64,000 nt of DNA, from assembly GCA_030524175.1 (NCBI GenBank), contig JAUNHC010000003.1, forward strand, positions 155,912-219,911, written 5' to 3'. Positions within the stretch are counted from its first letter, which is position 1. Every line of letters begins with the position of its first letter. Below, one piece after another: positions 20,826 to 37,692 of the stretch. A program made the translations under genes and the position numbers. A model generated the notes under the pieces. That model was not told where the DNA came from. It ran no database searches and saw only the letters and a list, made by a program, of their open reading frames with translations. This stretch comes from Eubacteriales bacterium. Its GTDB lineage: Bacteria > Bacillota > Clostridia > Lachnospirales > Lachnospiraceae.

Positions 20826-21470
20826 TCAGTCCACGATCACCGCCCGGGCAAAATACTGGGGCATATGGAAATTCGGCGTACTGCTTCCCACTTCTGAAAA
20901 ACTGGCATAATGTTCAATCTCCGGTGTCTCAGAAATCTTGTAAAAATTACAGTATAATGCTGTTTCAGGATCATCAAGAGCCACTCCGCTGATTTCCTTC
21001 AAAAAATCTTCTGGAAACAGGACATGGACTTTCCAGAAATGCTCCTCCACAACAGCTCCCGGAGCAGCCTTTTCATAAATGTCCGGCGGAAGAAAAGAGC
21101 GGTTCTTTCTTCCATGCCCGTATTTCCCATACATAACACCATTCCCGTTGATCTCAAAATTCAAATACAAGGAATCCGCTGTCATTGCCCCATCCTTGTC
21201 CGGAAAACCAATAAATATCTCCATGGCGCTGTCATCGCATACCCTTGACCCAGGAACAGATGCAAATCTGCCCTCAGGGTCTTTGCAGTCTCTCTTGGGT
21301 TCTTTTTCCCGGCAGGTCATTTCTACATAAAGCCCTTTTCCCTTTATATAGCCCATATACCCCGACACTTCCGGTTTCGGTCCGTCCACCCACTGAAAAT
21401 GCTCCACCTGAAACTGCTCGCACAACATGATTTCGTCTTCACTTTTTATTCTCTTCACATGGTAATCCAA
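20826..21470 (-). CDS. Carbohydrate-binding family 9-like (DOMON-type) protein
   Basis: 214 residues if started at TTG 21470, which has GAAGGAGG 7 nt upstream. A GTG at 21509 without such a site is the alternative. The sequence has the beta-rich pattern of CBM9-like/DOMON domains: GLYVEMTCREKEPKRDC, SAMEIFIGFPDK, LYLNFEINGNGVMYGKYG, FWKVHVLFPEDFL and YCNFYKISETPEIEHYASF. No signal peptide is seen, so it is probably cytoplasmic. Function is not known. It stands alone between the ptsH promoter and the transporter operon that ends at 21603. Confidence 0.55.
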   Translation of the reverse strand: MDYHVKRIKSEDEIMLCEQFQVEHFQWVDGPKPEVSGYMGYIKGKGLYVEMTCREKEPKRDCKDPEGRFASVPGSRVCDDSAMEIFIGFPDKDGAMTADSLYLNFEINGNGVMYGKYGHGRKNRSFLPPDIYEKAAPGAVVEEHFWKVHVLFPEDFLKEISGVALDDPETALYCNFYKISETPEIEHYASFSEVGSSTPNFHMPQYFARAVIVD

Positions 21471-21602
21471 AACTCTGCCTCCTTCGTCCTTCCTGTCAGT
21501 ATCCTTCACTGAGGAACTTCAGTCCCGTCAGCTTTACCCAGGACAACTGATATGCTTATGACATGATGACATTATTATAGAGTCCCTGCACCCATGTGTC
21601 AA

Positions 21603-22622
21603 TCAGCCCCGTCTTTGGAGTTTCCTCGTCCCCACATAAATGATCAAGGCCGCCAGGGACAACACTCCCGACTTCACACCTGTAAGCATCTGCTCCAATG
21701 CAGGAACTGTCTTCGGCATCATTAAATATAATTTCATTTTTTCGATTTCTGATTTGATCTTATCCGGCCAGAATTGAAAATCAGACCATTTTCCCGGCAT
21801 CCAGTCGACAGGAATCCTTACATAACGCCATATTAGAAAAACAGCCGCTCCCGCCATGAGAATGCAGGCACCTGTCCAGCACCAGGATTCCCAACTGCTC
21901 TCCCTGCACGTCTTTCGTTCTTTCCAGGCCGAACGGAAAAGCTCTCCGAAAAGCACTGCCGGAAGTAATAAAAGTGCCAGCAAAGGAAGGGATTTCATCA
22001 GTCCCTCCTCTGCGGCAGAACCGGAAAGCCCATGGCGCATAAGTAATTGATCCACAGCAGTTTCCTGATTTTCCCCTTTAGAAAAGCGAACCAGCATTCT
22101 TGTATACACTGTTTCCTTATCATATTTCCTGATAAGCACTACCTTTTGTTTCCAAGGCACAACCTTACGTACCTGATAAGTGTTTTTCCCCAGCTGAAGC
22201 ATCCCGCCTTCCGCCTGGGCACTTCCGAATAAATCCAGAGCAGTATTTCTGTCAATGATACAGCCATCCCTGTCCGTCCCGGAAAGCAAACCTGCTCTCC
22301 AGTCATACAGGCCCGCATCCCCTAAAAGCCCCACTGTCAAAACTTCTGTCTGACGTCCGTAATCCTTCTGCACCGCCTTCTGGATACCTCCGTCCCAATA
22401 AAAACATAAATCCGCAGGATTATCCCTCTTCTGCTCTGTCTCCAATATTTCACCTGCCCTGTTCTGATCCGGATATACAGAAGAAAAGAAAACAGGGATG
22501 GCCGGGTTCTCCCCCATTCCAAGATAAACCCTGAGGCTGCTGAAGTAGCAGACAGCTGCCAGCAGCCAGATGATCAGACATCTTCCCCAGGCCAGAAATG
22601 ATGCCTTACCGCCGCCGTTCAT
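21603..22622 (-). CDS. MacB/FtsX-like four-helix membrane protein (no ATPase attached)
   Basis: 339 residues. Topology resembles an ABC exporter permease of the MacB type. One N-terminal helix (about 10-28) is followed by an outside domain of about 180 residues (VGLLGDAGLYDWRAGLLSG, CIIDRNTALDLFGSAQ, TYQVRKVVPWKQKVV) and three C-terminal helices (LLALLLLPAVLFGELF, WTGACILMAGAAVFLIWRYV, VLSLAALIIYVG). No ATPase gene is in the operon. The start overlaps the adaptor gene by four bases (ATGA). Last gene of an operon whose promoter carries TTTAGAGA boxes. The family assignment is by topology and is therefore moderate. Confidence 0.5.
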   Translation of the reverse strand: MNGGGKASFLAWGRCLIIWLLAAVCYFSSLRVYLGMGENPAIPVFFSSVYPDQNRAGEILETEQKRDNPADLCFYWDGGIQKAVQKDYGRQTEVLTVGLLGDAGLYDWRAGLLSGTDRDGCIIDRNTALDLFGSAQAEGGMLQLGKNTYQVRKVVPWKQKVVLIRKYDKETVYTRMLVRFSKGENQETAVDQLLMRHGLSGSAAEEGLMKSLPLLALLLLPAVLFGELFRSAWKERKTCRESSWESWCWTGACILMAGAAVFLIWRYVRIPVDWMPGKWSDFQFWPDKIKSEIEKMKLYLMMPKTVPALEQMLTGVKSGVLSLAALIIYVGTRKLQRRG

Positions 22623-23959
22623 GACTCCTGCAGCCGTACACGGCTGCCGTCTTCAATCTCTCTGTCACAGTCCACAATGACCAACTGGCTGCCTGCAATG
22701 ATATTTTCCTGCAAAGCTGCCAGGGATTCGTTTTTGTCATTGACATTTACATCAACCTTTCTTGCCACCATCACTTCTCCCAGAACAGAATCCTGGGTAT
22801 CTACCACATAAACAAAATATCGTCCCTGTGCCTGGAATAATCCGGAAAGAGGAATACAGGAGGTGTAAGGTCCTTCATCCTTAGACACTGAAAACTCCGC
22901 TGTCTCACCGATAGAAAGCGTACCCTCCGGCACCTGCATAGAGATGATCCTGGAGTCTGCATCTGCTTCATCCTCTTTGATGGATTCAATGACCACGTCC
23001 TCAACTTCTTTTCCATTGCTCCCTTTTACCGAGGCCTTTGCACCAATCTCAACATACTTTAAATCATCCTTTGTAATGGTCCCCGTAAGCCGGAAATTTC
23101 CCTTTGTCTCATAGAGAATGACAGCAGCTTCCGAAGTTGTGGAACTCCCTGTAGATGCAGAAATCTTTTTTACAACTCCGTCCGCAGAGGCTTTCACTGC
23201 CCCCTTCCTTTTAAGAAGCTTCTGAAGCTTTTCAAGCTCCTTCTGCGCATCCTCCAGTTCCCTTTTTGCATTCTGAAGACTGCTGTCTGATGCGTCTGCC
23301 ATTCTGGCATCCTCTATCTCCCTTTCCGCTGTAAGCACTTCCTGGTTTCTGCTCATGATCACCTGATTTAACGCCTCTTCCCTTGCCCTAATTTCATCAA
23401 GCAGAGACTGTTCTCTGGAAGTGTCTGAAGGGGTGTCTGAAAATGACAGAGAGTCATAGTAATTCTGAAGCTTCTGCCTGGCAACATTTACCTCCATCTC
23501 AGCATTGGCTATATTGATATCACCGTTTTGCACTGCAACATTATAATTCTCCTGGGCTCTGCTGAGATCATTTGACTTTTTCTGGCCGCCCACAGAATCC
23601 TTGCTCTCCAGATCACCCACCTTCAGCTTAAGCTCCTCTATTTCTGCCTGTTTTTTACTTACTGATTCTTTCAGGCTTCCTGTGGAAAGACGAAGAAGCA
23701 CATCCCCTTTTTTCACTGACTGTCCTTCCTGTACAAGAACCTGTCCAACCTTCTGGTTTTCCATGGCAAAAACAGCCCTCTCCCGGATTCCTTCCACTTT
23801 TCCGCTGCCTTTGACCGTATGGGTGATCACCTGATTCTGTATTGTTTTAGTCCTGACCCTCGCCACATTTACAGAATCCGCTGCCCTTGACAGCACTGTA
23901 AAAAGAAACATTACCGCAAAAAACATGCCAAACCATTTCATCAACTTTTTTTGTCTCAT
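22619..23959 (-). CDS. HlyD/MacA-like membrane fusion (adaptor) protein
   Basis: 446 residues. N-terminal membrane anchor (WFGMFFAVMFLFTVLSRAAD), then the biotinyl-lipoyl half motif MENQKVGQVLVQEGQSVKKG. A long coiled-coil hairpin runs from about 95 to 240 (KQAEIEELKLKVGDLESK, AREEALNQVIMSRNQEV, AKRELEDAQKELEKL). The second lipoyl half is KGAVKASADGVVKKISASTG, followed by beta-barrel domains. Such adaptors bridge exporter permeases; in a Gram-positive cell the hairpin projects into the wall. It is placed between a sugar-type permease pair and a MacB-like protein, which is unusual. Confidence 0.8.
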   Translation of the reverse strand: MRQKKLMKWFGMFFAVMFLFTVLSRAADSVNVARVRTKTIQNQVITHTVKGSGKVEGIRERAVFAMENQKVGQVLVQEGQSVKKGDVLLRLSTGSLKESVSKKQAEIEELKLKVGDLESKDSVGGQKKSNDLSRAQENYNVAVQNGDINIANAEMEVNVARQKLQNYYDSLSFSDTPSDTSREQSLLDEIRAREEALNQVIMSRNQEVLTAEREIEDARMADASDSSLQNAKRELEDAQKELEKLQKLLKRKGAVKASADGVVKKISASTGSSTTSEAAVILYETKGNFRLTGTITKDDLKYVEIGAKASVKGSNGKEVEDVVIESIKEDEADADSRIISMQVPEGTLSIGETAEFSVSKDEGPYTSCIPLSGLFQAQGRYFVYVVDTQDSVLGEVMVARKVDVNVNDKNESLAALQENIIAGSQLVIVDCDREIEDGSRVRLQES

Positions 23960-23967
23960 ATGCTCAC

Positions 23968-24804
23968 CTACTCCTTAATCGCTGTAGAAATAATTCCCTG
24001 TTCCAGATAATCCTGCCCTGCCAGAAATACAAGAAGAGCAGGCAAAAGCACCATCACCGAAGCGGCAAAAGCAAGTCCTGCACGCTCCATATCAATATTG
24101 GGAAGAAACAAGGACAATGGCCATAATTCTTTTGTCTTCAAAAACGCCATAGGCTGTTCAATTAAATTCCAATATTCCAAAAATCCCAGGACCATAGCTG
24201 AAATAATCCCCGGTGATCCAAGAGGGATCCCCACCCTGATAAACATCTGGATTTCCCCTGCACCGTCAAGCCTGGCAGACTCCAACAAGGCCTCCGGTAT
24301 CCCTTCAAAAAAACGGTACATGATGAACACCGGAAATGTGGAAAACACAGCCGGGATAATAATTCCCGCCAGGCTGTCAATGAGCATTAATCTGTCCAGG
24401 ACCAGATAATTGCTCAGCATCATTACCTGAAACGGCATCATCATCAGAACGATATAAATGGTAAACAATATTTTTTTACCGGGGAAATCAAATTTTGCAA
24501 ATCCCCAGGCTGCGGGCACTCCCACCAGAAGCTGCCCTGCCAGAATCCCTGATGTAAGCTTTACTGAATTCCAGAACATAACGAAAAATCCCGGAGAGTC
24601 CAGCAGCAGTTCTACATAGGAACGCAGAGTAGGATACTGAGGCAAAAGCTTCCAGGAAGCAAAACCCTTTCCCCCATGGAGAACTGGGAGCAGCATTTCC
24701 TGAAGCTCCACATTTCCCATCAAAGACCCGATGGCCAGAAACACAATAGGAAAAACTGCAATAAATGCAAGCACGGCCAATAATCCAGTCAACACCCTTT
24801 TCAT
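23968..24804 (-). CDS. ABC sugar-type permease, MalG/CUT1 family
   Basis: 278 residues, six predicted helices. The cytoplasmic EAA loop that docks the ATPase is present (ALLESARLDGAGEIQMFIRV followed by GIPLGSPGIIS). The start (LLAVLAFIAVFPIVFLAIGS) and the end EQGIISTAIKE are typical of MalG-type carbohydrate importers. No ATPase and no separate solute-binding gene are adjacent. An MsmK-like shared ATPase would be needed, and the propeller-solute-binding fusions at 26651 and 30466 are the likely partners. Confidence 0.9.
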   Translation of the reverse strand: MKRVLTGLLAVLAFIAVFPIVFLAIGSLMGNVELQEMLLPVLHGGKGFASWKLLPQYPTLRSYVELLLDSPGFFVMFWNSVKLTSGILAGQLLVGVPAAWGFAKFDFPGKKILFTIYIVLMMMPFQVMMLSNYLVLDRLMLIDSLAGIIIPAVFSTFPVFIMYRFFEGIPEALLESARLDGAGEIQMFIRVGIPLGSPGIISAMVLGFLEYWNLIEQPMAFLKTKELWPLSLFLPNIDMERAGLAFAASVMVLLPALLVFLAGQDYLEQGIISTAIKE

Positions 24805-24808
24805 GCGG

Positions 24809-25654
24809 TCATTCCTCCTTTTCCCAGGCTTTTTGCAGCCCCAATATCAGAACCAGAATGATCAGCCCTGTAAATACTGCGGCAGCCGCCATTTTATCAA
24901 GGGCCAGATCCCTGTACCAGTTGTTAAACAAATGCTGCAGCAAATACATTTTTTCATGAGGATAATCTCCTGCCACCAGGTATGCCTCACGGAATACCTT
25001 AAAACCATTGAGCAGTGACAACACTACAATGGTAAACAAAGACGGCAGAAGGTTAGGCATTGTAATCTTTGTAAAACATTTCCATTCCCCCGCCCCATCT
25101 ACCTTCGCCGCATCATAAAGAGCCTGGGATATGCCTGATAATCCCGCTACCCAAAGCACAATATCATAGCCCAGATTTCTCCATAAATAGCTGATAACCA
25201 GCACATAGAACGAGGCTCCTGTATTCATCCAGTCTACTGTAGGTAAAGATACTATGGAAAATAAATGGTTCAACAACCCCTGGCTGTGAAAAAGGAGCTT
25301 CCAAAGGAGCACCACCGATGCCACCGGAATAGCCATGGGCAGGAGAAACAGGCTCTTAAGCGCCTGCATGAATTTTTTCTGTTTTGTCAAAATAACTGCA
25401 ATTGCCAGGGAGAGGATAACCAGAATAGGAATACACACACAGAAAAACTTCAGCGTATTGCCCGCCGCCAGCCTAAACGCCTGATTCTCAAAAATAGTCC
25501 TGTAATTTTTCAGCCCGGTAAATTCATTGCTCACAGCACTGAAAAAAGAACGCCTGATCACATCTATGTAAGGGATAAGCCAAAATATACATACCCCCAT
25601 AAAACTTGGTAAAATAAATAGAAACCCTTTAAGAGCCTTCTTTCTTTTTTTCAT
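24809..25654 (-). CDS. ABC sugar-type permease, MalF/UgpA family
   Basis: 281 residues. Starts MKKRKKALKGFLFILPSF, as in the CUT1 permease family. The EAA loop is ALYDAAKVDGAGEWKCFTKI followed by TMPNLLPSL. First gene of the operon, 4 bp before its MalG partner. The promoter at 25730-25752 has two TTTAGAGA-type boxes and diverges from the response regulator gene, which implies common control. Import of an oligosaccharide-like ligand is the family expectation; the substrate is unknown. Confidence 0.9.
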   Translation of the reverse strand: MKKRKKALKGFLFILPSFMGVCIFWLIPYIDVIRRSFFSAVSNEFTGLKNYRTIFENQAFRLAAGNTLKFFCVCIPILVILSLAIAVILTKQKKFMQALKSLFLLPMAIPVASVVLLWKLLFHSQGLLNHLFSIVSLPTVDWMNTGASFYVLVISYLWRNLGYDIVLWVAGLSGISQALYDAAKVDGAGEWKCFTKITMPNLLPSLFTIVVLSLLNGFKVFREAYLVAGDYPHEKMYLLQHLFNNWYRDLALDKMAAAAVFTGLIILVLILGLQKAWEKEE

Positions 25655-25728
25655 AATTCTGCCTCATTTCTGTGATAATGCAAAGCATAGTGTACTGACA
25701 TGCTTTTGCTGATAAAAACAGGATACCA

Positions 25729-25752
25729 TGACAATCTCTAAACAACCTCTAA
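25729..25752 (-). promoter_or_regulatory. RR-box promoter of the permease operon
   Basis: Minus strand: TTAGAGG (25746-25752) and TTTAGAGA (25735-25742) with an 11-bp period, then 9 nt, then a -10 TATCCT (25729-25734). It has the same architecture as four other promoters in this region. Confidence 0.65.
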
Positions 25753-25765
25753 TTCCCAGAAAAGA

Positions 25766-25799
25766 TTTAGAGACTATTTAGAGAATCCCATGATATAAT
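25766..25799 (+). promoter_or_regulatory. RR-box promoter of the response regulator gene
   Basis: TTTAGAGA at 25766-25773 and 25777-25784 (11-bp period), 9-nt gap, -10 TATAAT at 25794-25799. No -35 hexamer is present: the boxes occupy that position, as in activator-dependent promoters of OmpR-type regulators. Confidence 0.75.
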
Positions 25800-25826
25800 A
25801 GGAAAGTCTGGGCCAAAGGGGCAGGC

Positions 25827-26552
25827 ATGATCATGAGACAGAATTGTTATTTTACAGATAAGGTGTGTGAGAATTTGAAGATATTAATTATTGAAGATGA
25901 CATTGAATTGTCGGAAGCTATGAAATTCCGGCTGGAAAAAGAAGAATTTATTGTGGATGTGTGCCATGACGGCGAGGAAGGCCTTTACTATATGCAGGAG
26001 GATCTCCATGATCTTGTGATCCTTGACAGGATGCTCCCTAAAATGGACGGTATCAAAGTTCTCCGCGAGGCCAGGCGCACTCATGTCACTACCCCGGTTA
26101 TCTTTCTGACCGCACTGGGGGAATTAAATGACAAGGTCACAGGCCTTGACAGCGGCGCAGATGACTACATAGTGAAGCCCTTTGCATTTGAAGAACTGAT
26201 GGCCCGTATCCGCTGCCTGATGCGCCGTCCCGGGCAATGGGATGATTCTGCACTTCTTAAACTAGGAGATATTTCCTTCGATCCCGAGAGCAACCGATTG
26301 TCTAAGCTTGACAAGGAATGTACACTCTCCAAACGGGAAGGTGCTCTCCTTGAAGTTTTTTTGCGCAATCCCGGCCAGATACTTCCCCGCCCTCTTCTGA
26401 TCAACCGGGTCTGGGGCCTGGACAGCGACGTGGAAGAAGGAAATCTTGACAATTACATCCACTTCCTCAGACGCCGCCTGAAAGCAGTGGGCAGCACCCT
26501 TAACCTGAAAACAGCCCGGGGAGTGGGATATCAGATTGATGTGTACCATTAA
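25827..26552 (+). CDS. OmpR-family response regulator
   Basis: 241 residues. Receiver domain with acidic pair EDD (24-25), phospho-acceptor Asp67 in LVILDRMLPKMDG, Thr in FLTALGE and Lys in DYIVKPFAFEEL. The C-terminal winged helix ends NLKTARGVGYQIDVYH. The chosen ATG has AAAGGGGC 4 nt upstream; a TTG before KILIIEDD is the alternative. The cognate kinase is not adjacent but at 33034, after three lipoprotein genes on the other strand. Both carry the same promoter boxes, which this protein probably binds as a dimer. It would then autoactivate. Confidence 0.93.
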   Translation: MIMRQNCYFTDKVCENLKILIIEDDIELSEAMKFRLEKEEFIVDVCHDGEEGLYYMQEDLHDLVILDRMLPKMDGIKVLREARRTHVTTPVIFLTALGELNDKVTGLDSGADDYIVKPFAFEELMARIRCLMRRPGQWDDSALLKLGDISFDPESNRLSKLDKECTLSKREGALLEVFLRNPGQILPRPLLINRVWGLDSDVEEGNLDNYIHFLRRRLKAVGSTLNLKTARGVGYQIDVYH

Positions 26553-26599
26553 CTTCAAAAGTCAGTATAACTCGAAGTTACTATCATAAAAGAGAAATA

Positions 26600-26644
26600 C
26601 CCCACTGGAATTTTCAATGCTGTGAAGCATTGAGTCCAGTGGGG
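26600..26644. terminator. Bidirectional terminator between response regulator and propeller-SBP gene
   Basis: CCCCACTGGA (26600-26609) pairs with TCCAGTGGGG (26635-26644). An inner TCAATGC (26614-26620) pairs with GCATTGA (26627-26633). It lies between convergent genes and is followed by ATATTTTTAT on the plus strand. Confidence 0.85.
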
Positions 26645-26650
26645 ATATTT

Positions 26651-29026
26651 TTATTCTGACAGATATAAATTCACTTCTTTGATAATTGATGATGCTGCTT
26701 CTTCCAGGGTGCTTTCTCCCTTTAAATATGCCTGTCCCTGTTCTGCCACAGCATTCAGTATGATATCATTGACCGCTGAAGGAACTGTAAGAGTTTTTCC
26801 GATATCCTGGATTTTCTTCACTGTCTCCTCTGACGGCTGAAGAACATTTAGGGTGACCATCTCACCGGTTTTGCCGTTACTTGAGCTTAATATGGATACT
26901 TTGCCCTCATCATCTCCCACATTCCAATAATCCCAATCCTCATATACTGACTGATTCACCGGTAGTCCGTTTCCAATCATCTGCGCTTCCCCGCTGAACA
27001 GGAACTGCACAAATTTCTCTGCTGCCTCTTTATTTTCTGTCTTTGCACTGATCCCTACTATCTGTAAAGGAATAAAGCAGTTCTCTGCCTGTCCGTTAAA
27101 GAGTCTGCTGGATAAAGTTCCCATCTCCTTCTCTGTAGAATCCAGGGTTGCCAGACTATCCGGTGAATACAGCCCGCCGATATTCAGAAGCTGGCTTCCG
27201 TCCATTAAAGGAGTACCGCCAACAGACATATATTCACGCTGATAATCATCACCAACCTCGTAACCATCCATCCATACCCCACCAAACCATTGTTCTGCTG
27301 CTTCTTTGCCGGCCTGATAGATACGATTGCTCTGCTCCAGATAATCCTTTACTGCTGTCTCGTCAAGAGTACCATCCTCCTTGAACCACGCAGGTGCGCA
27401 TACATCTGCCAAAGATTTCAGCAGCAGCTTGGGACTTACCAAATTATACATTGGCAGGCTGTCCGCAGAATATTGCTCCTTATTCTGTTCTATCACATCT
27501 GCCAGGGTGTTCAAATCTGTTATTTTATCCACGTCCCCTGTGTTCCCGCAGAGGAACGGAATACCAAATTTTGCCGGCATCCGGTAAATACTGTTGTTTT
27601 CATCCACATAGGCATTCTTTATATTTTCAAGTATCCCTGCATCCTTTAACACACCGCTTAAATCCTCCAGCATTCCCTTTTCCACATAAGTGTCTTCCGG
27701 GATTCCGTCCAGGATCAGGATATCCGGTCCCTTCCCTGCCATTATTTCTGTGTTCAGAGTTTTTATGGCATCTGTGCTTGTCACAGCATCTTCCCCCGTC
27801 ATACCGGTTTCCAGACTCAGATAAATATCCGGATACTTTTTCTGGAAGACAGCTGCTACCTGCTTCATCAAGTCGCTCTCCTTAAGAGAATATATCTTCA
27901 GCTCTGTATCAGGCACAGAAGGGGTATCTTTAGAATAGACATACTTTAGAATTTGACCTTTCATATTCCCCTGGCCTGACCCTGATGTCAGCAGATAAAA
28001 GCTTCCGTCAACTCCTCCGATGAAATCCACAAGTCCGCAGTCTGGTGACCCGATGGAATTCAAAGAACCGTTAACAATTTGTTCAACTACATTGCCGCCG
28101 AAAGTATATCCATATATTCCGGTATGGTCTACGTAGAAAATACTGTCCTCCTGATCGCCTTTGGCAAATATGATCGAATCTGAAGAACTACTTTGATTGC
28201 TTAAATTCCCAGACTCTGACATAATCTGCTTCGTCAGTGCTTCTTCATCCGACAATGGTTTACCGCTGTCTAAATCGTAATAATGTACCCCGTCATAAGT
28301 AACTACTATCAGCCTGCTTCCCACAGCCCCAAAGAACTGTGCAGAACCACTTTCTTCATAGCGGTTGACCACACTTCCGTCATCAGGATTGAGTTCGATG
28401 ATCCCCTTGCCGATAAACTGTAAAAGAAAAGTACCCTTATCTGTAGCTTTTCCTCTCCACATTATATCCTCGGCTGTAATATCATCTATTTCAATTTCCC
28501 TGCTTTCCCCCTCCGGATCAATATATGCATACTTATATTCGGGTCTAATATTTTCACCCTCTCCTGCTTCAGTATACATGCTTAGAAGCATACCGCCGTT
28601 TTTTGCCAGTATCGCTTTAGAGATTTCATAGCCCTCCATATCGATGCCAACCATATCAGCTATTTTCGATCCTTTTTCCCAGGTCTGGCCCTGATCTTTA
28701 CTCTTGGACAAAAACGGAGAATAGCCCTCATCGCGGTATATTATGCCCATAGACCCGTCATCAAGGAAGGTAAGGCCCTCAACATACTGACTCCCCTCCG
28801 GTACATTCATATCTTCCTCCAGATATCTCCCCATAGGTATATCCGAATCTGTCTTTGTCTCTGGATCTGCCTTTGCATCTGTCCCTGTATCTTCCCCCGC
28901 ACCGCCAGTTTCCTGCTTCTTTTCATCCTTATTGCTGTCCCCGCACCCTGCAAGGCCCCCCACAGCCACGCAAACAGCCGCAGCTGCCGCGATACCTTTC
29001 CTCCAGTTAAAATCCATTGATTTCAT
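26651..29026 (-). CDS. Lipoprotein: beta-propeller (BNR-type) fused to ABC solute-binding domain
   Basis: 791 residues from the ATG after GAAAGGAGGC; the longer frame would start upstream of the predicted transcript. Lipobox LAGC places the lipid-modified Cys at residue 28. About 50-370 is a beta-rich repeat region with an Asp-box (SKDQGQTWEKGSK) and repeats like SIFYVDHTGIYGYTFGGNVV. About 385-791 is a family-1 extracellular solute-binding protein (LMKQVAAVFQKKYPDIYLSL, ILILDGIPEDTYVEKGML, KEAAEKFVQFLFSGEAQ). This fusion should sit on the outer membrane face, binding a ligand for the permease pair at 23968-25654 and possibly for the kinase. RR-box promoter at 29056-29089. Paralogue of 30466-32793. 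Confidence 0.85.
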   Translation of the reverse strand: MKSMDFNWRKGIAAAAAVCVAVGGLAGCGDSNKDEKKQETGGAGEDTGTDAKADPETKTDSDIPMGRYLEEDMNVPEGSQYVEGLTFLDDGSMGIIYRDEGYSPFLSKSKDQGQTWEKGSKIADMVGIDMEGYEISKAILAKNGGMLLSMYTEAGEGENIRPEYKYAYIDPEGESREIEIDDITAEDIMWRGKATDKGTFLLQFIGKGIIELNPDDGSVVNRYEESGSAQFFGAVGSRLIVVTYDGVHYYDLDSGKPLSDEEALTKQIMSESGNLSNQSSSSDSIIFAKGDQEDSIFYVDHTGIYGYTFGGNVVEQIVNGSLNSIGSPDCGLVDFIGGVDGSFYLLTSGSGQGNMKGQILKYVYSKDTPSVPDTELKIYSLKESDLMKQVAAVFQKKYPDIYLSLETGMTGEDAVTSTDAIKTLNTEIMAGKGPDILILDGIPEDTYVEKGMLEDLSGVLKDAGILENIKNAYVDENNSIYRMPAKFGIPFLCGNTGDVDKITDLNTLADVIEQNKEQYSADSLPMYNLVSPKLLLKSLADVCAPAWFKEDGTLDETAVKDYLEQSNRIYQAGKEAAEQWFGGVWMDGYEVGDDYQREYMSVGGTPLMDGSQLLNIGGLYSPDSLATLDSTEKEMGTLSSRLFNGQAENCFIPLQIVGISAKTENKEAAEKFVQFLFSGEAQMIGNGLPVNQSVYEDWDYWNVGDDEGKVSILSSSNGKTGEMVTLNVLQPSEETVKKIQDIGKTLTVPSAVNDIILNAVAEQGQAYLKGESTLEEAASSIIKEVNLYLSE

Positions 29027-29055
29027 ATAAAGCCTCCTTTCACTTGTCATTTCGT

Positions 29056-29089
29056 ATGATATCAGGCTTATCTCTAAAATATCTCTAAA
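29056..29089 (-). promoter_or_regulatory. RR-box promoter of propeller-SBP gene 1
   Basis: Minus strand TTTAGAGA at 29082-29089 and 29071-29078 (11-bp period), 9 nt, -10 TATCAT at 29056-29061. Confidence 0.75.
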
Positions 29090-29113
29090 AAGGAAAAAAC
29101 TTTAAGTGCAACA

Positions 29114-29144
29114 GGGCTGTTCCAAATAATCTTCAGAACAGCCC
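29114..29144 (-). terminator. Weak terminator after the truncated propeller gene
   Basis: GGGCTGTTC (29114-29122) and GAACAGCCC (29136-29144), a 9-bp stem with a 13-nt loop. No immediate U-run; a T-run (AAGTTTTTTCC on the minus strand) lies about 10 nt further. Confidence 0.4.
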
Positions 29145-29236
29145 CACTGTTATAAAATTCATATAATGATATTGAGGTAAAAAGGTATTACGACCCCTGA
29201 TCCATAAATTTATATCCCGATTTATGCAGCCTGTAC

Positions 29237-30277
29237 TTATATTGTACCGGACATACCTGAGTATTTATACATCTCAGAATGGATATTCTCTGAAGCAACA
29301 TCAAAAACCAAAACATAAAAATTGCCTTCGTCATCCTTTGTAAAATCCATTATTCCGCTGGCAGTATTCTCTTCATAAAACGGTCCGTCTACGATTTTCT
29401 CCATGATATCTGTATTAAACTCATAGCTGTATATACCGTTATTATCAATATAATACACCCTATCCTCCTGCTTCCGGCCGGCAAACATAACAAGAGAGGT
29501 TCCGTTCAATGCCTGCGTATGATATTGCGGATCATCCTCAAGGGTCTTGGCCAGTAATTTTCCATCCTCCAAAGCTTCACCTGTATCTATATCATAGAAT
29601 TTGACTTTCAACAGTTCCGCCGCGATCAGCCGGTTCCCTGCAACTCCAAAATACCACACGAAATCATCTGTATATCGATTTTCCACCCTGCCGTCCGCAA
29701 GATTAACTTCTATTATTCCTTCCCCTATCGTATGTAGAATCACTTTTCCATCTTCTGTAAAACTGCTGTTCATTATACCATCTGCCTCTTCAAGCCCCTC
29801 AATGTCCAGGATATTTACCTGATTGTCGGCAGATATATAATATCTGTCTGTTCTGAAATCCTCCGGGTCTAATTGTTCTTTTTTCAAAGTGGATAAAATA
29901 CTGACAAAAACACCGCCATCTTCTGCAATACTCAGACCTGACACATCACCTAATATTCTGTCTGTGTCCAGGATTTCTCCTAAGGTTTTTCCTTCTTCCC
30001 AAGTTGTCCCTCCGTCGCTAGAATCCACTATATGTACAATTTGACTATCGTCCATATATGCCAGCCGGATCGTGCCATCCTTAAGGATTCTTACTCTTTC
30101 TGCTTTCAGACATCCTTCCGGCAAAATCACCTCTTGTTTCAAATATGTCCCCTCGGATGGTGTCTCACCCGTATCCGCACCATCAACTTTAAACGGCATA
30201 CCTGCCAGTATCAAAACAGAAAAAAACATTGCTAAAGCGACTGCTCCCTTTTTATAAAACAAATATTTCTTTTTCAT
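29237..30277 (-). CDS. Free-standing propeller paralogue lacking the solute-binding domain
   Basis: 346 residues. It aligns with the propeller halves of its two neighbours: Asp-box SSDGGTTWEEGKT, DRVYYIDNNGIYSYEFNTDI, GIMDFTKDDEGNFYVLV. It stops exactly where they enter the solute-binding domain. No solute-binding remnant fits in the 136 bp that follow. The signal peptide (VALAMFFSVLILAGM) has Met where the lipobox Cys should be, so the product is secreted or membrane-held rather than lipidated. It has a strong ribosome binding site (AAGGAGGG) but no TTTAGAGA boxes upstream. It may be a decoy/accessory protein or a decaying duplicate; the intact frame argues for some function. Confidence 0.7.
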   Translation of the reverse strand: MKKKYLFYKKGAVALAMFFSVLILAGMPFKVDGADTGETPSEGTYLKQEVILPEGCLKAERVRILKDGTIRLAYMDDSQIVHIVDSSDGGTTWEEGKTLGEILDTDRILGDVSGLSIAEDGGVFVSILSTLKKEQLDPEDFRTDRYYISADNQVNILDIEGLEEADGIMNSSFTEDGKVILHTIGEGIIEVNLADGRVENRYTDDFVWYFGVAGNRLIAAELLKVKFYDIDTGEALEDGKLLAKTLEDDPQYHTQALNGTSLVMFAGRKQEDRVYYIDNNGIYSYEFNTDIMEKIVDGPFYEENTASGIMDFTKDDEGNFYVLVFDVASENIHSEMYKYSGMSGTI

Positions 30278-30436
30278 TATTATCCCTCCTTCTGATGTAT
30301 CTTAAACATATCATATTTTAATATTTTTCACAATAATTTCTTGTATTCCGCACTAATATTCTGATTTCGTAAACATCACTCCCCATTTTGTATTTATTAT
30401 ATCTTCTCAAAATATAGTCTGCTATCTCAGAAAAAA

Positions 30437-30460
30437 TGCCCCGGCTGCCAAGCCAGGGCA
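30437..30460 (-). terminator. Terminator of propeller-SBP gene 2
   Basis: TGCCCCGGCT (30437-30446) and AGCCAGGGCA (30451-30460), followed on the minus strand by TTTTTTCTGAG. It starts only a few bases after the stop codon, so the truncated propeller gene is probably not read from this transcript. Confidence 0.8.
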
Positions 30461-30465
30461 TAAAT

Positions 30466-32793
30466 TTATTCCGACAACTGGAGATTAATTTCCTGTACAA
30501 TTCTGTCCGCAGCTTCTCCGAGGGTAATCCTGCCTTCCAAATATTCCACTCCAGAATCCGCCACGGCATTTAAAAGACTTTCATTATATCCTGAAGGTAC
30601 AGTCAGGCTCTTTCCAATTTCCTGCATTTTCTTTATTGCCTCATCTCCCGGCAACTTAACTTCCAGTTCCACACTTCCCCTTCCCTCAAAATAGTGGCTG
30701 GTAACATCCACAATCTGCCCTTCTTCTCCTGATCTCCAATAATTTATATCTTCAAAAACACCTTGGTTTACCGGAAGTCCTGTCCCTAAGTTCAATTCCT
30801 GTCCTTCTTTGCTGAACACAAACCTGATAAACTTTTCAGCGTTCTTGTTGTTTTCTGACATCTCACTGATCCCTACAATCCCTGCAGAAATAAAACAATC
30901 CTCTGCCTGTCCGTTCCACAGCCTACCTGTCAAAGAGCCGTGCTTTTTCTCCATAGAATCCATTGCTGCCAACTCTATCGGTGAATACAGCCCCCCAATC
31001 TCCAGCATTATATCGTCATAAAGCATGGTGACTGAATTTGTATATACACTCCCAAGACTTCTGCTGTATTTATAATCCGGACTGACGCCGCAAGCCTCCT
31101 TATATTTCTCTACAGCCTTTCTCCCTGCCTGATAGATTCTGTTAACCTGTTCAAGATATTCTGAAATTTTTTCTCTGTCCAACATACCATCATCCTGAAA
31201 CCATGCAGGGGATGAGGTCACTGACAAACCTCTCACAAGCTTCTCCGGATAATATGCCTGTGAGGTGGGAATGAATTTTTCATTAAACTCCTTTTCCTCC
31301 ACTTTATCTGCAAACGACTTTAAATCCCGTATACTGTCCAAATCTTCTTTCCTGCCTTCCAGAACAGGTATTCCGAATCTCATAGGAAGCATATAAATAC
31401 TTCCGTCTTCCTCTACATAGGCATTTTTAATATTTTCCAGGATATCTGCATCTCCCAGTAATCCACTCATATCAGAGAGCAAACCTTTTGGGATATAAGA
31501 ATCAGCCGGTAAATCATCCAGGATCAGAATATCCGGCCCCTTCCCTGCCATAATTTCAGTATTCAATGTTTTAACTGCATCCTCATTTGTAACAGCCTCA
31601 TCTTCTGTTATGCCTGATTCAATCTTCAGATGAATATCCGGATATTTTTTCTGGAAAACAGCTGCAATCTGTTTCAGTGCATTGTCTTCCCTTAAAGAAT
31701 ATACTGTCAGCTCTGTGTCAGGCAAAGAGGGCATGTCCTTAGTATATACATACCGAAGCAGTCTTGCGGTACCGCTCTGTGAACTGCCGTCTGATACGGC
31801 CACATAAAAATCCCCTTCTTCATCTTGTGCAAAATCCACAAATCCCACATTTGGTGCTCCCATGGAATTAAGCTGTGCATCAATAATCTGTTCAACTACA
31901 CTGCCGCCCAAAACATATCTGTACATACCCTGGTGGTCAATATAAAACAAACTGTTATCTTCGTCTCCGTCTATAAATAAAATAGGATTCACCTGTAAAG
32001 ATCTGAGGAACATATTTGAGTTTTTCATAGAGACCTGCTTCGTAAGGGGTTCCAGATTATCCAGGGGTTTTCCGGTATCCAAATCATAGTAGTGGATATC
32101 TTTGTCAAAAATTGTGATCATTATATTTCCCGCCAGTCCAAAATTATTCACTGGATTTCCTTTTTCATATTCAGAGATAACAGCATCTTCTTTTATATCT
32201 ATTTCCTGTACACTGTCCCCTGCTTTCACAAACAATCTGCCCTCCTTCGAAAAATCATTGCGGCTTATGATCCCATTTAATTCCTCTCCAACTGTCAGCT
32301 CCTTTTTCTGCCCTTGGGGAGAAAAATACAGACAATGAGTAATTGCTTCTTTATTATTTCCTTCTCCCATAAACTTTGCAGTGGATATGAAAATCCCTCC
32401 GTCCTTGGCTAATGCGGCAGGACAGGTGGTATAACCCGTATTTTTTCCTGACGGCTCTGTCAAATTAAATTTTTCCGTCCAGGTCTTTCCTTTATCCTCA
32501 GAATCTGCTGCTATCAGCCTTTGTTCTTCATCTGAATAGACAATACGCATGACCCCGGTGTCTAGAAACTCCACTGCTTCAATTGCTCTGCATCCTTTTG
32601 GAAGAGATACTTCCTCTTCCTGGTAACGTCCCATGGCTTTCACATCTTCTATCTCAAGTACCTCACTGCCTCCGGCTGCCGGTTTTTCTTCTTCCCACTG
32701 CCCGTTGCATCCGGCAAGCCCCACACCCCCGGCTGCCATCAAACAGACAATAGCTCTCCCAAGCCATTGTCTCCAATTTCCTCTTCTCTTCAT
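30466..32793 (-). CDS. Lipoprotein: beta-propeller (BNR-type) fused to ABC solute-binding domain, second copy
   Basis: 775 residues from the ATG preceded by GTGAGGT; a GTG 21 bases earlier is inside the leader. Lipobox LAGC, lipid Cys at residue 29. N-terminal half: Asp-box SEDKGKTWTEKFN, YYDLDTGKPLDNLEP, LFYIDHQGMYRYVLGGSVV. C-terminal half: family-1 solute-binding protein (LKQIAAVFQKKYPDIHLKIE, TLNTEIMAGKGPDILILDDL, NAEKFIRFVFSKEGQELNLG). It is clearly homologous to 26651-29026 over its whole length yet diverged, so the two may bind different ligands. RR-box promoter at 32836-32869. Confidence 0.85.
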   Translation of the reverse strand: MKRRGNWRQWLGRAIVCLMAAGGVGLAGCNGQWEEEKPAAGGSEVLEIEDVKAMGRYQEEEVSLPKGCRAIEAVEFLDTGVMRIVYSDEEQRLIAADSEDKGKTWTEKFNLTEPSGKNTGYTTCPAALAKDGGIFISTAKFMGEGNNKEAITHCLYFSPQGQKKELTVGEELNGIISRNDFSKEGRLFVKAGDSVQEIDIKEDAVISEYEKGNPVNNFGLAGNIMITIFDKDIHYYDLDTGKPLDNLEPLTKQVSMKNSNMFLRSLQVNPILFIDGDEDNSLFYIDHQGMYRYVLGGSVVEQIIDAQLNSMGAPNVGFVDFAQDEEGDFYVAVSDGSSQSGTARLLRYVYTKDMPSLPDTELTVYSLREDNALKQIAAVFQKKYPDIHLKIESGITEDEAVTNEDAVKTLNTEIMAGKGPDILILDDLPADSYIPKGLLSDMSGLLGDADILENIKNAYVEEDGSIYMLPMRFGIPVLEGRKEDLDSIRDLKSFADKVEEKEFNEKFIPTSQAYYPEKLVRGLSVTSSPAWFQDDGMLDREKISEYLEQVNRIYQAGRKAVEKYKEACGVSPDYKYSRSLGSVYTNSVTMLYDDIMLEIGGLYSPIELAAMDSMEKKHGSLTGRLWNGQAEDCFISAGIVGISEMSENNKNAEKFIRFVFSKEGQELNLGTGLPVNQGVFEDINYWRSGEEGQIVDVTSHYFEGRGSVELEVKLPGDEAIKKMQEIGKSLTVPSGYNESLLNAVADSGVEYLEGRITLGEAADRIVQEINLQLSE

Positions 32794-32835
32794 ACAACAG
32801 TACCTCACTCTCACTAATATTCCACTAAGATAAAT

Positions 32836-32869
32836 ATTCTACCATCTCTGTCTCTAAAAAATCTCTAAT
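32836..32869 (-). promoter_or_regulatory. RR-box promoter of propeller-SBP gene 2
   Basis: Minus strand ATTAGAGA (32862-32869) and TTTAGAGA (32851-32858), 11-bp period, 9 nt, -10 TAGAAT (32836-32841). Confidence 0.75.
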
Positions 32870-32896
32870 CAAGGAGTTAAGGGCAAACGTATTCCT

Positions 32897-32918
32897 GGTC
32901 ACGGAGTGAGCCGTAACC
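32897..32918. repeat. Inverted repeat between two divergent RR-box promoters
   Basis: GGTCACGG (32897-32904) and CCGTAACC (32911-32918) pair with one mismatch. The repeat is centred between the propeller-SBP and kinase promoters. It could be an extra regulator site; there is no other support. Confidence 0.3.
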
Positions 32919-32951
32919 TGTTTAAGCAAATTTCTCTCCACAGAATTTTAC

Positions 32952-32985
32952 TTTAGAGACTTTTTGGAGAATCTCATGATATAAT
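32952..32985 (+). promoter_or_regulatory. RR-box promoter of the sensor kinase gene
   Basis: TTTAGAGA (32952-32959) and TTTGGAGA (32963-32970), 11-bp period, 9 nt, -10 TATAAT (32980-32985). The bases after the boxes (ATCTCATGATATAAT) nearly repeat those of the response regulator promoter (ATCCCATGATATAAT). Confidence 0.75.
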
Positions 32986-33033: not shown

Positions 33034-34305
33034 ATGTTCCGTAAGCTTCATATAGAAATGACAATCTTCTCAACTCTCATTACCAGTGCGATCCTCATTG
33101 CCATGACTCTGGTCTGCCTCTTTATAGCCGAGAAGGGAACCAGAGAGAACAGCTATACCACCTTTTCCAATAATGTAAATTCCTGTATCACTCATCTGGA
33201 AAGCCAGGTTGTCCTGTCTCACCAGTGGATCCTGCAGGCGGAAAAAGCATATGGAGTCAAGATGAAAATCAAGGACAACGGAAATTCCCTGTTCTTTGAC
33301 AAGCTGAATCCCGCCCAGGAATCAGAGGCTGCTTTCCATAAAGCTATTGCCATATCCAGAGATACACAGGGATTGGACTTAGAATCTGCAGGCCGTACTT
33401 ATGTTACAAAAACTACAATATTTAAAATGGGGGACTATTACGCTTCCACCGCTGTCATACCAAAAACAGAAGGAAACATGAGTGTGATCATACTATATCC
33501 CTTGAGGACATTGGAACAGCAGATTAAAAGCCAAAGAACTTCCTTTTTCCTGGCAGTGGCGGCTGCAATCATTGCACTCAGCATATTTTCCTGGTTCTTT
33601 ACGAAAAAAATGCTCCGGCCTCTTGAAGTAAGCCGCCGTAAGCAGACAGAGTTCATCGCTTCCGCTTCCCATGAACTCCGTTCTCCCTTAACCGTCATCC
33701 TGTCCAGCATCCAGGCCATGGAACAGGCTGCTCAGGAAGATACTCCCCGCTTTACCTCTGCCATTAAAAAGGAAGGGGACAGGATGGCACGCCTTGTGAA
33801 CGATATGCTGTCACTTGCCAATGCGGACAACCGTTCCTGGAGCATTCTTCTCTCACCTTGTGAGCTGGATACCTTACTTTTAGACACCTATGAGAAATAC
33901 GAACCTCTCATGAAAGAGAAAAATCTTCATTTTTCCATACAGCTTCCGGATTCTCCCCTTGAACCCTGCCGCTGTGATTCTTCCAGGATTGCGCAGGTAC
34001 TGGGAATCCTCCTTGACAATTCCATAAGCTATGTCCCCACAGGAGGAGAAATAAGTCTTTCCCTCTCACTCGATGTAAAGGCATTTCACCTGACAGTTGC
34101 TGACAACGGTCCCGGGATTCCTGACAAAGATAAAACCACTGTCTTCCAGCGTTTTTACCGTGCAGACTCCTCCCGTAACGATAAGCAGCATTTCGGACTG
34201 GGACTTTGCATTGCCCAGGAGATCATTCATCTCCACAAAGGTGATATCTGCATTACAGATACTCCCGGAGGGGGAGCCACTTTTACCATCACTCTCCCGA
34301 AATAG
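33034..34305 (+). CDS. Sensor histidine kinase
   Basis: 423 residues. Two membrane helices (about 10-32 and 169-189) enclose an outside sensor domain of about 135 residues of no recognised family. The phospho-acceptor is His213 in ASASHELRSPLTVILSS. The ATP-binding domain shows GILLDNSISYVP (N box), VADNGPGIPDKD, FQRFYRADSS and HFGLGLCIAQEIIHLHKG (G boxes). GGAAAGGAG precedes the ATG. Presumed partner of the response regulator at 25827; the shared promoter design supports this. Candidate signals are the free ligand or a ligand-loaded propeller-SBP lipoprotein. Confidence 0.93.
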   Translation: MFRKLHIEMTIFSTLITSAILIAMTLVCLFIAEKGTRENSYTTFSNNVNSCITHLESQVVLSHQWILQAEKAYGVKMKIKDNGNSLFFDKLNPAQESEAAFHKAIAISRDTQGLDLESAGRTYVTKTTIFKMGDYYASTAVIPKTEGNMSVIILYPLRTLEQQIKSQRTSFFLAVAAAIIALSIFSWFFTKKMLRPLEVSRRKQTEFIASASHELRSPLTVILSSIQAMEQAAQEDTPRFTSAIKKEGDRMARLVNDMLSLANADNRSWSILLSPCELDTLLLDTYEKYEPLMKEKNLHFSIQLPDSPLEPCRCDSSRIAQVLGILLDNSISYVPTGGEISLSLSLDVKAFHLTVADNGPGIPDKDKTTVFQRFYRADSSRNDKQHFGLGLCIAQEIIHLHKGDICITDTPGGGATFTITLPK

Positions 34306-34401: not shown

Positions 34402-35658
34402 CTACTCACTTCTAAGCGCATCTATAGGATTCAGGTTAGACGCCTTCACAGAGGGCAGAAGTCCGAATATCAAACCAATCAGCATTGAAAAAACAACAGA
34501 TCCGATGATCGCAGGTATACTGATGGCAGACGGCGAGCCGGAAACCTTAGCTACCACCTTTGAAAGTCCGATACCTGACACCACTCCGATCAGTCCTCCG
34601 ATACTTGTCAGCACGGAAGCCTCAGTAAGAAACTGTGCCAGTATCGTCTTCTTTCTGGCTCCGATAGCCTTCTTAAGTCCAATCTCACTTGTACGCTCAG
34701 TAACAGACACAAGCATAATATTCATAACACCGATACCGCCTACCAGAAGTGAAATACTTGCGATCCAAAGCAGCTGTGTGTTCGTACTTTCACTAAGCTT
34801 CTGAAGATTCCGTACCTTTTCCATAACATCATCTGCTTTATAGGCAAAATTGCTGTTGCCGGTATTTACGATATTCTCACTTAACAGCTTAGCCGCCGCA
34901 TTTCCGGCATTACTCATATTATCTGTACTGTCAGCCTTAATAATGGCATTTTCAGGTTCATCAAACTTAAAGGCAGCCGGCCAGGTCTTGTTGGGAATCA
35001 TGATACTTCCCATGATCGTCTGGTAATATTCGTAATACTCACTCACTGTTTCTATAGCCGGAACATAATTATCATCAAGCTTGATCACACCTACCACCGT
35101 AAACGGCTCCTGGCTGATCTCAATTGTTTTCCCCACAGGATTCTCTCCCGGAAAAAGATTCTCAGCCGCATTGTTGTCAACCAATACCACTTTCCTGTAT
35201 TGATCATAATCTTTCTGGACAAATGCCCTGCCGGCCTGCACCTTATATCCGCAGGTATCCAGATAGTTCATATCAATTCCGTATACCTTGCCGCCCTGGA
35301 AACTTGTATTCCCATAGTAAACACTGCTGGTATATGACCTGCTGTAATAAAATGTAGCATTTTGTACGTGCTCCAGTTCCCGTACCTCTTCCTTCTGCTC
35401 ATTAGTCAGAAGGGGCGGGGTGGAGGTGGTCATACCGTACTCCGAATCATAGGAATTGTCCCCATCGTACAGGGTAACAGGCACCGTATTATTGCCTGAA
35501 CCGATCAAATCCTCTTTAATCTGTTCACTTGTCCCCTTTATGGTGGAGACTATGGCAATAATAGAGGCAATTCCTATGATAATACCCAGCATGGTCAGGA
35601 AGGATCTCATCTTATGGGACCATATCCCTTGAAAGGCCAGTCTTATATTTTCAAACAT
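34402..35658 (-). CDS. MacB-type ABC exporter permease
   Basis: 418 residues. N-terminal helix in MLGIIIGIASIIAIVSTI, then an outside MacB periplasmic-core-type domain (about 45-285: YYSRSYTSSVYYGNTSFQGG, AGRAFVQKDYDQYRKVVLV, GENPVGKTIEI). The FtsX helices follow (ISLLVGGIGVMNIMLVSVTE, ERTSEIGLKKAIGARKKTI, GVVSGIGLSKVV and IGLIFGLLPSVKASNLNPID). These signatures are very typical of MacB/YknZ-class exporters of peptides or toxic compounds. Last gene of the four-gene operon with an ATPase and two adaptors. Confidence 0.93.
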   Translation of the reverse strand: MFENIRLAFQGIWSHKMRSFLTMLGIIIGIASIIAIVSTIKGTSEQIKEDLIGSGNNTVPVTLYDGDNSYDSEYGMTTSTPPLLTNEQKEEVRELEHVQNATFYYSRSYTSSVYYGNTSFQGGKVYGIDMNYLDTCGYKVQAGRAFVQKDYDQYRKVVLVDNNAAENLFPGENPVGKTIEISQEPFTVVGVIKLDDNYVPAIETVSEYYEYYQTIMGSIMIPNKTWPAAFKFDEPENAIIKADSTDNMSNAGNAAAKLLSENIVNTGNSNFAYKADDVMEKVRNLQKLSESTNTQLLWIASISLLVGGIGVMNIMLVSVTERTSEIGLKKAIGARKKTILAQFLTEASVLTSIGGLIGVVSGIGLSKVVAKVSGSPSAISIPAIIGSVVFSMLIGLIFGLLPSVKASNLNPIDALRSE

Positions 35659-35672
35659 GATTTCCCTCCTTT

Positions 35673-37688: not shown

Positions 37689-37692
37689 GCTA

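Follow-up and report, generated by a model that had tools for sequence, protein, structure and literature searches.

Does the locus considered here hold a single regulatory circuit, in which a response regulator and a sensor histidine kinase encoded apart from each other control their own genes together with surface lipoproteins and a transporter operon? It lies in a stretch of 64,000 nucleotides, hereafter the window, from an Eubacteriales bacterium of the Lachnospiraceae (assembly GCA_030524175.1, contig JAUNHC010000003.1, forward-strand positions 155,912 to 219,911); all window coordinates count from its first letter. A first-pass annotation of the window had claimed that five promoters, those of the regulator, the kinase, two lipoproteins of the solute-binding protein (SBP) type and a permease operon, share two copies of a short box with an 11-bp period, followed by exactly 9 nt and a -10 hexamer. 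We find that the window is best explained, with a probability of about 0.82 for the whole account including the predicted binding and activation, by a two-component system whose genes have been split and which governs a small regulon that amplifies itself.

A two-box motif at five promoters

Searching the window with TTTAGAGA-N3-TTTAGAGA at up to three mismatches returned the five claimed sites as its only matches (Table 1), against a mean of 1.24 matches, a largest value of 4 and never 5 in 100 dinucleotide shuffles. At all five sites box 2 is separated from the -10 hexamer by exactly 9 nt, which confirms the proposed layout. A TG lies one base upstream of the -10 at each of them, an extended -10 of the TGn kind that had gone unmentioned in the first-pass annotation. 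Its statement that none of the five has a normal -35 also holds, the best candidates at these promoters matching TTGACA at only 1 to 3 of 6 positions. The site of the permease operon is real, and its span needs correction: the quoted positions 25729-25752 omit the -10 at 25720-25725, and the correct span is 25720-25753.

Scored with a matrix made from 101 sites, all in other genomes and none from this one, the five sites score between 32.7 and 43.1 bits; the best of all other positions in the window reaches -0.2 bits. Because the sites of the matrix were picked by pattern, conservation of their box letters is built in; a fairer test is the footprint seen when the permease promoter is aligned with the same intergenic island in five relatives. 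In this six-genome alignment the boxes, the TG and the -10 are kept, and little else is.

A scan of the genome, which had been suggested as a check, indicates that the motif is not placed at random. The full motif with its extended -10 occurs, at up to three mismatches, at six sites in 5.95 Mb, five of which are those of the window, and all six precede genes of the predicted class; the reversed pattern occurs at none. The sixth site lies on contig C85, 33 bp upstream of the called start of another open reading frame (ORF) of the SBP family, which is 32% identical to SBP1 of the window and has a likelier ATG 36 bp further downstream. This motif-bearing gene is a stand-alone one (L119:12788-15215), and the genes before it look like a cell-division/cell-wall cluster, which we take to end in ftsZ. 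A near-match on contig C77, with one mismatch in the boxes, was rejected as a member of the regulon: it has no match with a -10 and falls inside a 164-aa ORF.

Conservation in related genomes

For conservation we used 53 loci, 942,441 bp in total, from other genomes; 47 had been fetched for the regulator and six (L199-L204) because of a motif match. In these we counted sites with at most two mismatches of 18 letters. Locus L215, a duplicate of L009, was excluded from the counts and the matrix, and one of the 102 sites was excluded from the matrix because a flanking base was missing. Against the 102 sites in these loci, the reversed motif has one, and 60 letter-shuffled motifs average 0.1 (maximum 1). 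Spacing is equally restrictive: the observed one gives the 102 sites, and 48 others give 0 to 22, the value of 22 belonging to a shift which the repeated GA and TA letters can mimic.

Conservation at related loci was another check named in the first-pass annotation, and it bears the prediction out: 97 of the 102 sites stand upstream of homologues of the SBPs (33), the regulator (28), PermA, the first gene of the permease operon (22), or the kinase (14). The end of the site lies a median of 35 bp from the called start (range -146 to 673, negative values denoting a start called too early). Of the remaining five, one precedes a contig-truncated SBP-like lipoprotein gene (L012), another falls at the end of a contig, and the last three stand before genes of other kinds. 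A further 29 loci picked by the motif contribute 33 sites, before genes for SBPs (16), regulators (11, one of them, in L247, a doubtful target with a 40% match over 115 residues and 733 bp away), PermA (2) and others (4). The motif also follows the permease operon when genes move: in genome G044 some 90 kb separate the operon from the regulator, in G051 the operon is on another contig, and in both a motif with 0 of 18 mismatches stands in front of it.

Co-occurrence of motif and regulator

We called the regulator present at a match of E 1e-60 and the motif at no more than one mismatch, in two genome sets that overlap in some genomes. Among 145 relatives, 38 have the regulator and 36 the motif (34 both, four the regulator only, two the motif only, 105 neither), the motif being found in 34/38 regulator-bearing and 2/107 other genomes. 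The corresponding figures among 397 genomes of the family are 70 with the regulator, about a sixth of those sampled and including gut species, and 53 with the motif (50 both, 20 the regulator only, three the motif only, 324 neither); here the motif occurs in 50/70 regulator-bearing genomes against 3/327 others, and the regulator in 50/53 motif-bearing against 20/344 motif-less ones. Reversed-pattern controls gave 1 match against 83 for the motif in one scan and 4 against 89 in another. As to the motif-only genomes, both of those in the smaller set (G007 and G017) carry an SBP, and in G509 of the larger set the regulator is present in the motif locus itself (L243). Named relatives with the regulator include Blautia parvula, Robinsoniella peoriensis and Neglectibacter timonensis, which are of gut or animal origin.

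The regulator, the kinase and their separation

The regulator, whose start is likely the TTG at 25875 as judged by eye from the alignment of homologues, combines a receiver with a winged helix (Pfam Response_reg 2.1e-28, Trans_reg_C 1.3e-17), and its best solved chain by sequence is 1kgs, response regulator D. Residues D24, D67, T95 and K117, which have the receiver roles of conserved acidic residue, phospho-acceptor Asp, Thr and Lys, are invariant in 26/26 aligned regulators. By inspection, the extracytoplasmic sensor of the kinase, about 130 residues long, is flanked by two membrane helices; this sensor domain has no convincing Pfam match, and the structure matches listed all fall on the kinase core.

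The first-pass annotation had treated the two genes as one split pair, and the arrangement elsewhere supports this. Regulator and kinase genes are adjacent on the same strand, within 209 bp, in 16 of the 17 loci L009-L025 (L009 is the exception), and adjacent in all nine loci with another genus code (L138, L205-L208, L210-L213). Among the same-genus loci L122-L137, the two genes do not form one operon in any of the 15 that show both; the genus also has paralogous copies (L120, L209), in which they are still adjacent. Given this adjacency in other genera and in the paralogous copies, the separation of the two genes seems to be derived and particular to this copy in this genus.

Recognition helix and box

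The recognition helix is altered in all four regulator-only genomes of the 145-genome set and in 15 of the 17 regulator-only genomes fetched from the set of 397. We further compared helix and box over 80 regulators, with the matrix made neutral at the two tested G positions, and with three regulators that have neither Asn nor Thr in the helix excluded from the groups. The fifth base of box 1 is G in 74/91 sites of regulators with a helix Asn (in NLDNY) against 0/15 with Thr (Fisher 9e-10), and that of box 2 in 63/91 Asn-type against 4/15 Thr-type sites (p 0.003). On the best tree, built without the recognition helix and everything after it, the helix change takes five steps; a single origin is compatible with the supported branches. 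These figures are suggestive of a covariation, in part, of the regulator helix with the box.

A related regulator with the helix NVDSYISFLRKRL or NVDNYISFLRKRL/F was seen in L232 (G277), L233 (G266) and L245 (G222); it has a near-invariant box pair of its own in front, TTTAGAGG-ATT-TTTACAGA, which on its own is also found in G004 and G052.

The proposed circuit and its alternatives

In the circuit that we favor, the kinase would sense an extracytoplasmic signal and phosphorylate the regulator, which would bind as a head-to-tail dimer to the two TTTAGAGA half-sites, one DNA turn apart, at the place of the -35, and help RNA polymerase to start from the adjacent extended -10 (TGnTAnnnT). The regulator would in this way switch on itself, the kinase, both SBP lipoproteins of the window, the further SBP encoded on C85 and the operon for two sugar-type ABC permeases, an HlyD adaptor and a MacB-domain membrane protein; since the promoters of regulator and kinase both carry boxes, the circuit should amplify itself. 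The resemblance of the SBP domain to CbpC, together with the sugar type of the permeases, suggests that the targets capture and import an oligosaccharide-like ligand. We infer that the regulator binds and activates, that feedback is positive and that the system serves to sense and import an oligosaccharide; that kinase, regulator, lipoproteins and transporter operon probably belong to one circuit, as had been claimed, is supported by the rarity of the motif, its conservation and its co-occurrence with the regulator.

Several observations weigh against this account or limit it. In 20 of the 70 family genomes with the regulator, the motif is absent at one mismatch or fewer; of the 17 that were fetched, two (G295, G464) have no site and the other 15 have variant ones scoring at least 12 bits. 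Similarly, 10 of 80 regulators have no site at 14 bits in the 500 bp upstream, L021 among them being a case without upstream sequence. Among the motif-only genomes, G400 carries a 40-bit site in front of a gene for a small lipoprotein, with a regulator found neither in the 14 kb fetched nor at the genome cut-off; the site in G370 falls within an ORF and seems to be a chance match. On the side of the helix, G270 and G398 have the exact consensus, yet weak sites only (28.0 and 25.1 bits), and altered helices also occur in motif-bearing genomes (e.g., L205, L214, L216, L218, L232, L233), so that helix and box are not strictly tied; moreover, the independent helix-box pairs number at most four, and one on well-supported branches. 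When the -10 is left out, the box pair at up to two mismatches occurs nine times in the genome against 17 times for the reversed control; hence the boxes alone are not significant genome-wide and the -10 part is needed. Finally, the boxes of the five promoters may be shared by two regulators, that of the window and a second one on contig C73 of the same genome.

This second regulator is 52% identical to the first, with a recognition helix identical letter by letter over GNLDNYIHFLRRRL, and the SBP promoter on C73 carries four TTAGAGA-type boxes with an 11-bp period. One could accordingly envisage that the C73 regulator is the main, or an additional, protein binding the window's boxes, in two cross-talking systems instead of one closed circuit. 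However, the C73 boxes stand 10 nt, not 9, from their -10 (TATACT) and give no match to the full motif, and in 28 of the 34 relatives that have the motif as well as the regulator, only one regulator matches at E 1e-60; we regard such cross-talk as an unlikely arrangement, albeit one that deserves to be kept in mind. It is also conceivable that the regulator represses, its binding in the -35 region blocking the polymerase until the signal relieves the block, since sigma region 4 would bind where the boxes lie. Yet the -35 match is at most 3/6 and an extended -10 is present in 5/5 of the window promoters, and a weak -35 with an extended -10 is the usual make-up of activator-dependent promoters. 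In the PhoP regulon, boxes arranged as direct repeats at a distance of about one turn from the -10 are activating (PMC3335776). Repression thus appears improbable.

The fixed distance to the -10 would also suit the promoter of an alternative sigma factor in place of a regulator site. A tandem direct repeat with an 11-bp period next to an ordinary sigma-A-like extended -10 speaks against this, as does the co-occurrence of the motif with one regulator subfamily with whose recognition helix it partly covaries; on the repeat structure and the co-occurrence we rejected this very improbable alternative. Lastly, some of the loci are close relatives and the box pair without the -10 is, as noted, no commoner than its reversed control, which might point to chance or to flank similarity inherited without function. 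Nevertheless, the six-genome alignment keeps little apart from the boxes, TG and -10, the shuffled motifs have close to no matches in the same loci and the motif follows the relocated operon. A chance origin of the full motif was rejected on the shuffles, the reversed controls and the matrix from other genomes, and the probability left to this explanation is negligible.

Predicted target genes and neighboring genes

Table 1. Promoters and genes of the predicted regulon in the window, with the basis of each assignment
Feature	Position	Strand	Sequence or basis
Response regulator promoter	25766..25799	+	TTTAGAGA-CTA-TTTAGAGA, 9 nt, TGA-TATAAT; 0 mismatches; 42.6 bits
Permease operon promoter	25720..25753	-	ATTAGAGG-TTG-TTTAGAGA, 9 nt, TGG-TATCCT; 2 mismatches; 36.7 bits
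SBP1 promoter	29056..29089	-	TTTAGAGA-TAT-TTTAGAGA, 9 nt, TGA-TATCAT; 0 mismatches; 43.1 bits
SBP2 promoter	32836..32869	-	ATTAGAGA-TTT-TTTAGAGA, 9 nt, TGG-TAGAAT; 1 mismatch; 32.7 bits
Sensor kinase promoter	32952..32985	+	TTTAGAGA-CTT-TTTGGAGA, 9 nt, TGA-TATAAT; 1 mismatch; 33.4 bits
OmpR/PhoB-family response regulator	25827..26552	+	Pfam Response_reg, Trans_reg_C; recognition helix GNLDNYIHFLRRRL
Sensor histidine kinase	33034..34305	+	Pfam HisKA and HATPase_c; structure model, kinase core matches WalK/YycG
SBP1 lipoprotein	26651..29050	-	Predicted N-terminal Asp-box beta domain, C-terminal CbpC-like sugar-binding domain
SBP2, paralogue of SBP1 (44% identity)	30466..32814	-	Pfam SBP_bac_1, alignment
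PermA, CUT1-like carbohydrate ABC permease, first gene of operon	24809..25654	-	Pfam BPD_transp_1; NCBIfam GlcT/UgpA-like, below cut-off
PermB, carbohydrate-type ABC permease	23968..24804	-	Pfam BPD_transp_1; NCBIfam UgpE/MalG-like, below cut-off
HlyD/MacA-like adaptor	22619..23959	-	Pfam HlyD_3 above cut-off; NCBIfam RND_mfp below cut-off
TMx membrane protein	21603..22622	-	Homologues with MacB-type extracytoplasmic domain
CBM9_2 protein downstream of operon, operon membership uncertain	20826..21509	-	Pfam CBM9_2

The start of SBP1 is likely at 29026, as judged by eye. In the aligned SBPs the Asp-box columns (S-x-D-x-G-x-T-W) S117, G121 and W124 are conserved; residues 75-373 are mostly strands in the model, with weak matches only to propellers and sialidases, and the VIA rows for SBP1 lie mostly over residues 309-799. 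The product of the gene at 29237-30277 (346 aa) corresponds to the N-terminal, propeller-like half of the SBPs alone, again with weak sialidase matches. This gene lies downstream of a terminator-like hairpin, seen by eye, without a box; we do not include it among the directly controlled targets, no window position beyond the five exceeding -0.2 bits.

In the operon, the TMx protein of the window itself has no Pfam match; MacB_PCD is found in 16/23 aligned members of its family (E up to 0.1, best 2.5e-9), and the family scan gave no ATPase domain or FtsX match among them. A consensus IP-x-D-x-IP-x2-WSDF-x-FW is kept near the last membrane helices of this family. The CBM9_2 gene is present in 3/16 of the same-genus loci L122-L137. 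A Pfam scan of the ten ORFs of at least 200 aa between 20826 and 34305 found no ATPase, and the sole one among nine neighboring window ORFs scanned (37693-38364) belongs to an exporter-type cluster; three OB_MalK proteins are encoded elsewhere in the genome, and MalK-type ATPases of this kind could serve the permeases. The exporter-type cluster (34402-39779; a MacB-FtsX permease, an adaptor, the ATPase and a second adaptor) stands beside the locus in many same-genus loci and has no motif in the window. A PHROGs search gave no useful match. The paralogous copy on C73 (L120:4102-11724) comprises genes for an SBP, HlyD, TMx, a regulator and a kinase, with no permeases in the stretch shown.

One may take these parts a step further, to a regulator family with a readable specificity code, in which the helix Asn would read the box G (TTTAGAGA) and Thr the box A (TTTAAAGA), combined with a surface machine in which the propeller-like and sugar-binding lipoprotein docks on the sugar-type permeases, accompanied by the HlyD adaptor and the ATPase-less MacB-like protein, and is sensed by the kinase. 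This combined proposal we consider doubtful; if true, a loaded lipoprotein-permease complex sensed by the kinase would constitute a transporter-gated positive-feedback switch.

Additional motif sites were observed before other kinds of genes. In L022:5462-7016 a motif stands before each of two adjacent lipoprotein genes (about 210 aa) and a third before the SBP gene that follows them, and similar-looking small lipoprotein genes are preceded by the motif in L231 (G225) and L266:6106-6871 (G400); such small lipoproteins may be a further class of targets. Other sites precede genes for secreted proteins in L227 and L237 and for a small lipoprotein in L246. In single genomes, the motif stands before what we take to be a D-Ala-D-Ala carboxypeptidase-like gene (L202:6462-7570) and before a presumably envelope-type cluster of small genes (L199:6953-7576), two sites that could hint at a cell-envelope signal. 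All these extra targets come from single or few genomes and are weak, and we do not claim them for the regulon.

Comparison with known systems

Judged from sequence, the predicted regulon is of the autoregulated OmpR/PhoB type, and the system is a new and widespread one. Titles and opening lines of abstracts among the openly licensed PubMed Central matches listed include no bacterial regulator with this box and nothing on this system, and a term search of the Blautia producta beta-glucan paper returned no matches (PMC10318527). What the locus offers is a testable regulon with an exact predicted operator sequence and targets, the operator being usable to find further ones; specificity in OmpR-family regulators can be tested directly on the correlation of Asn or Thr with G or A, and an envelope system is suggested by the putatively co-regulated genes for the permeases, the adaptor and the MacB-domain protein.

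With CUT1 importers (MalFG, UgpAE, Clostridium thermocellum CbpC) the locus shares two BPD_transp_1 permeases and a family-1 SBP closest to CbpC. Unlike them, it has a predicted N-terminal beta domain of about 300 residues with an Asp-box on the SBP, no ATPase among the locus ORFs scanned, and HlyD and MacB-domain genes in the operon. The HlyD-like adaptor beside a MacB_PCD-family membrane protein in turn recalls the MacA-MacB exporters; in contrast to those, TMx shows neither an ATPase domain nor an FtsX match in the scan, and the pair is placed behind importer permeases.

As for the regulation, PhoB regulons with their pho boxes share the kind of regulator and the promoter layout of the system described here. 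PhoP promoters of architecture I have a box about one helical turn from the -10, which drives transcription (PMC3335776). The system described here resembles PhoP regulons in its regulator of receiver and winged helix, in tandem half-sites with an 11-bp period that replace the -35 and in boxes at its own genes (PMC3335776). It differs from the PhoB and PhoP regulons in the box TTTAGAGA, in the extended -10 at five of five promoters, in the separation of kinase and regulator in this genus and in its predicted targets, which are SBP lipoproteins and a permease/adaptor operon.

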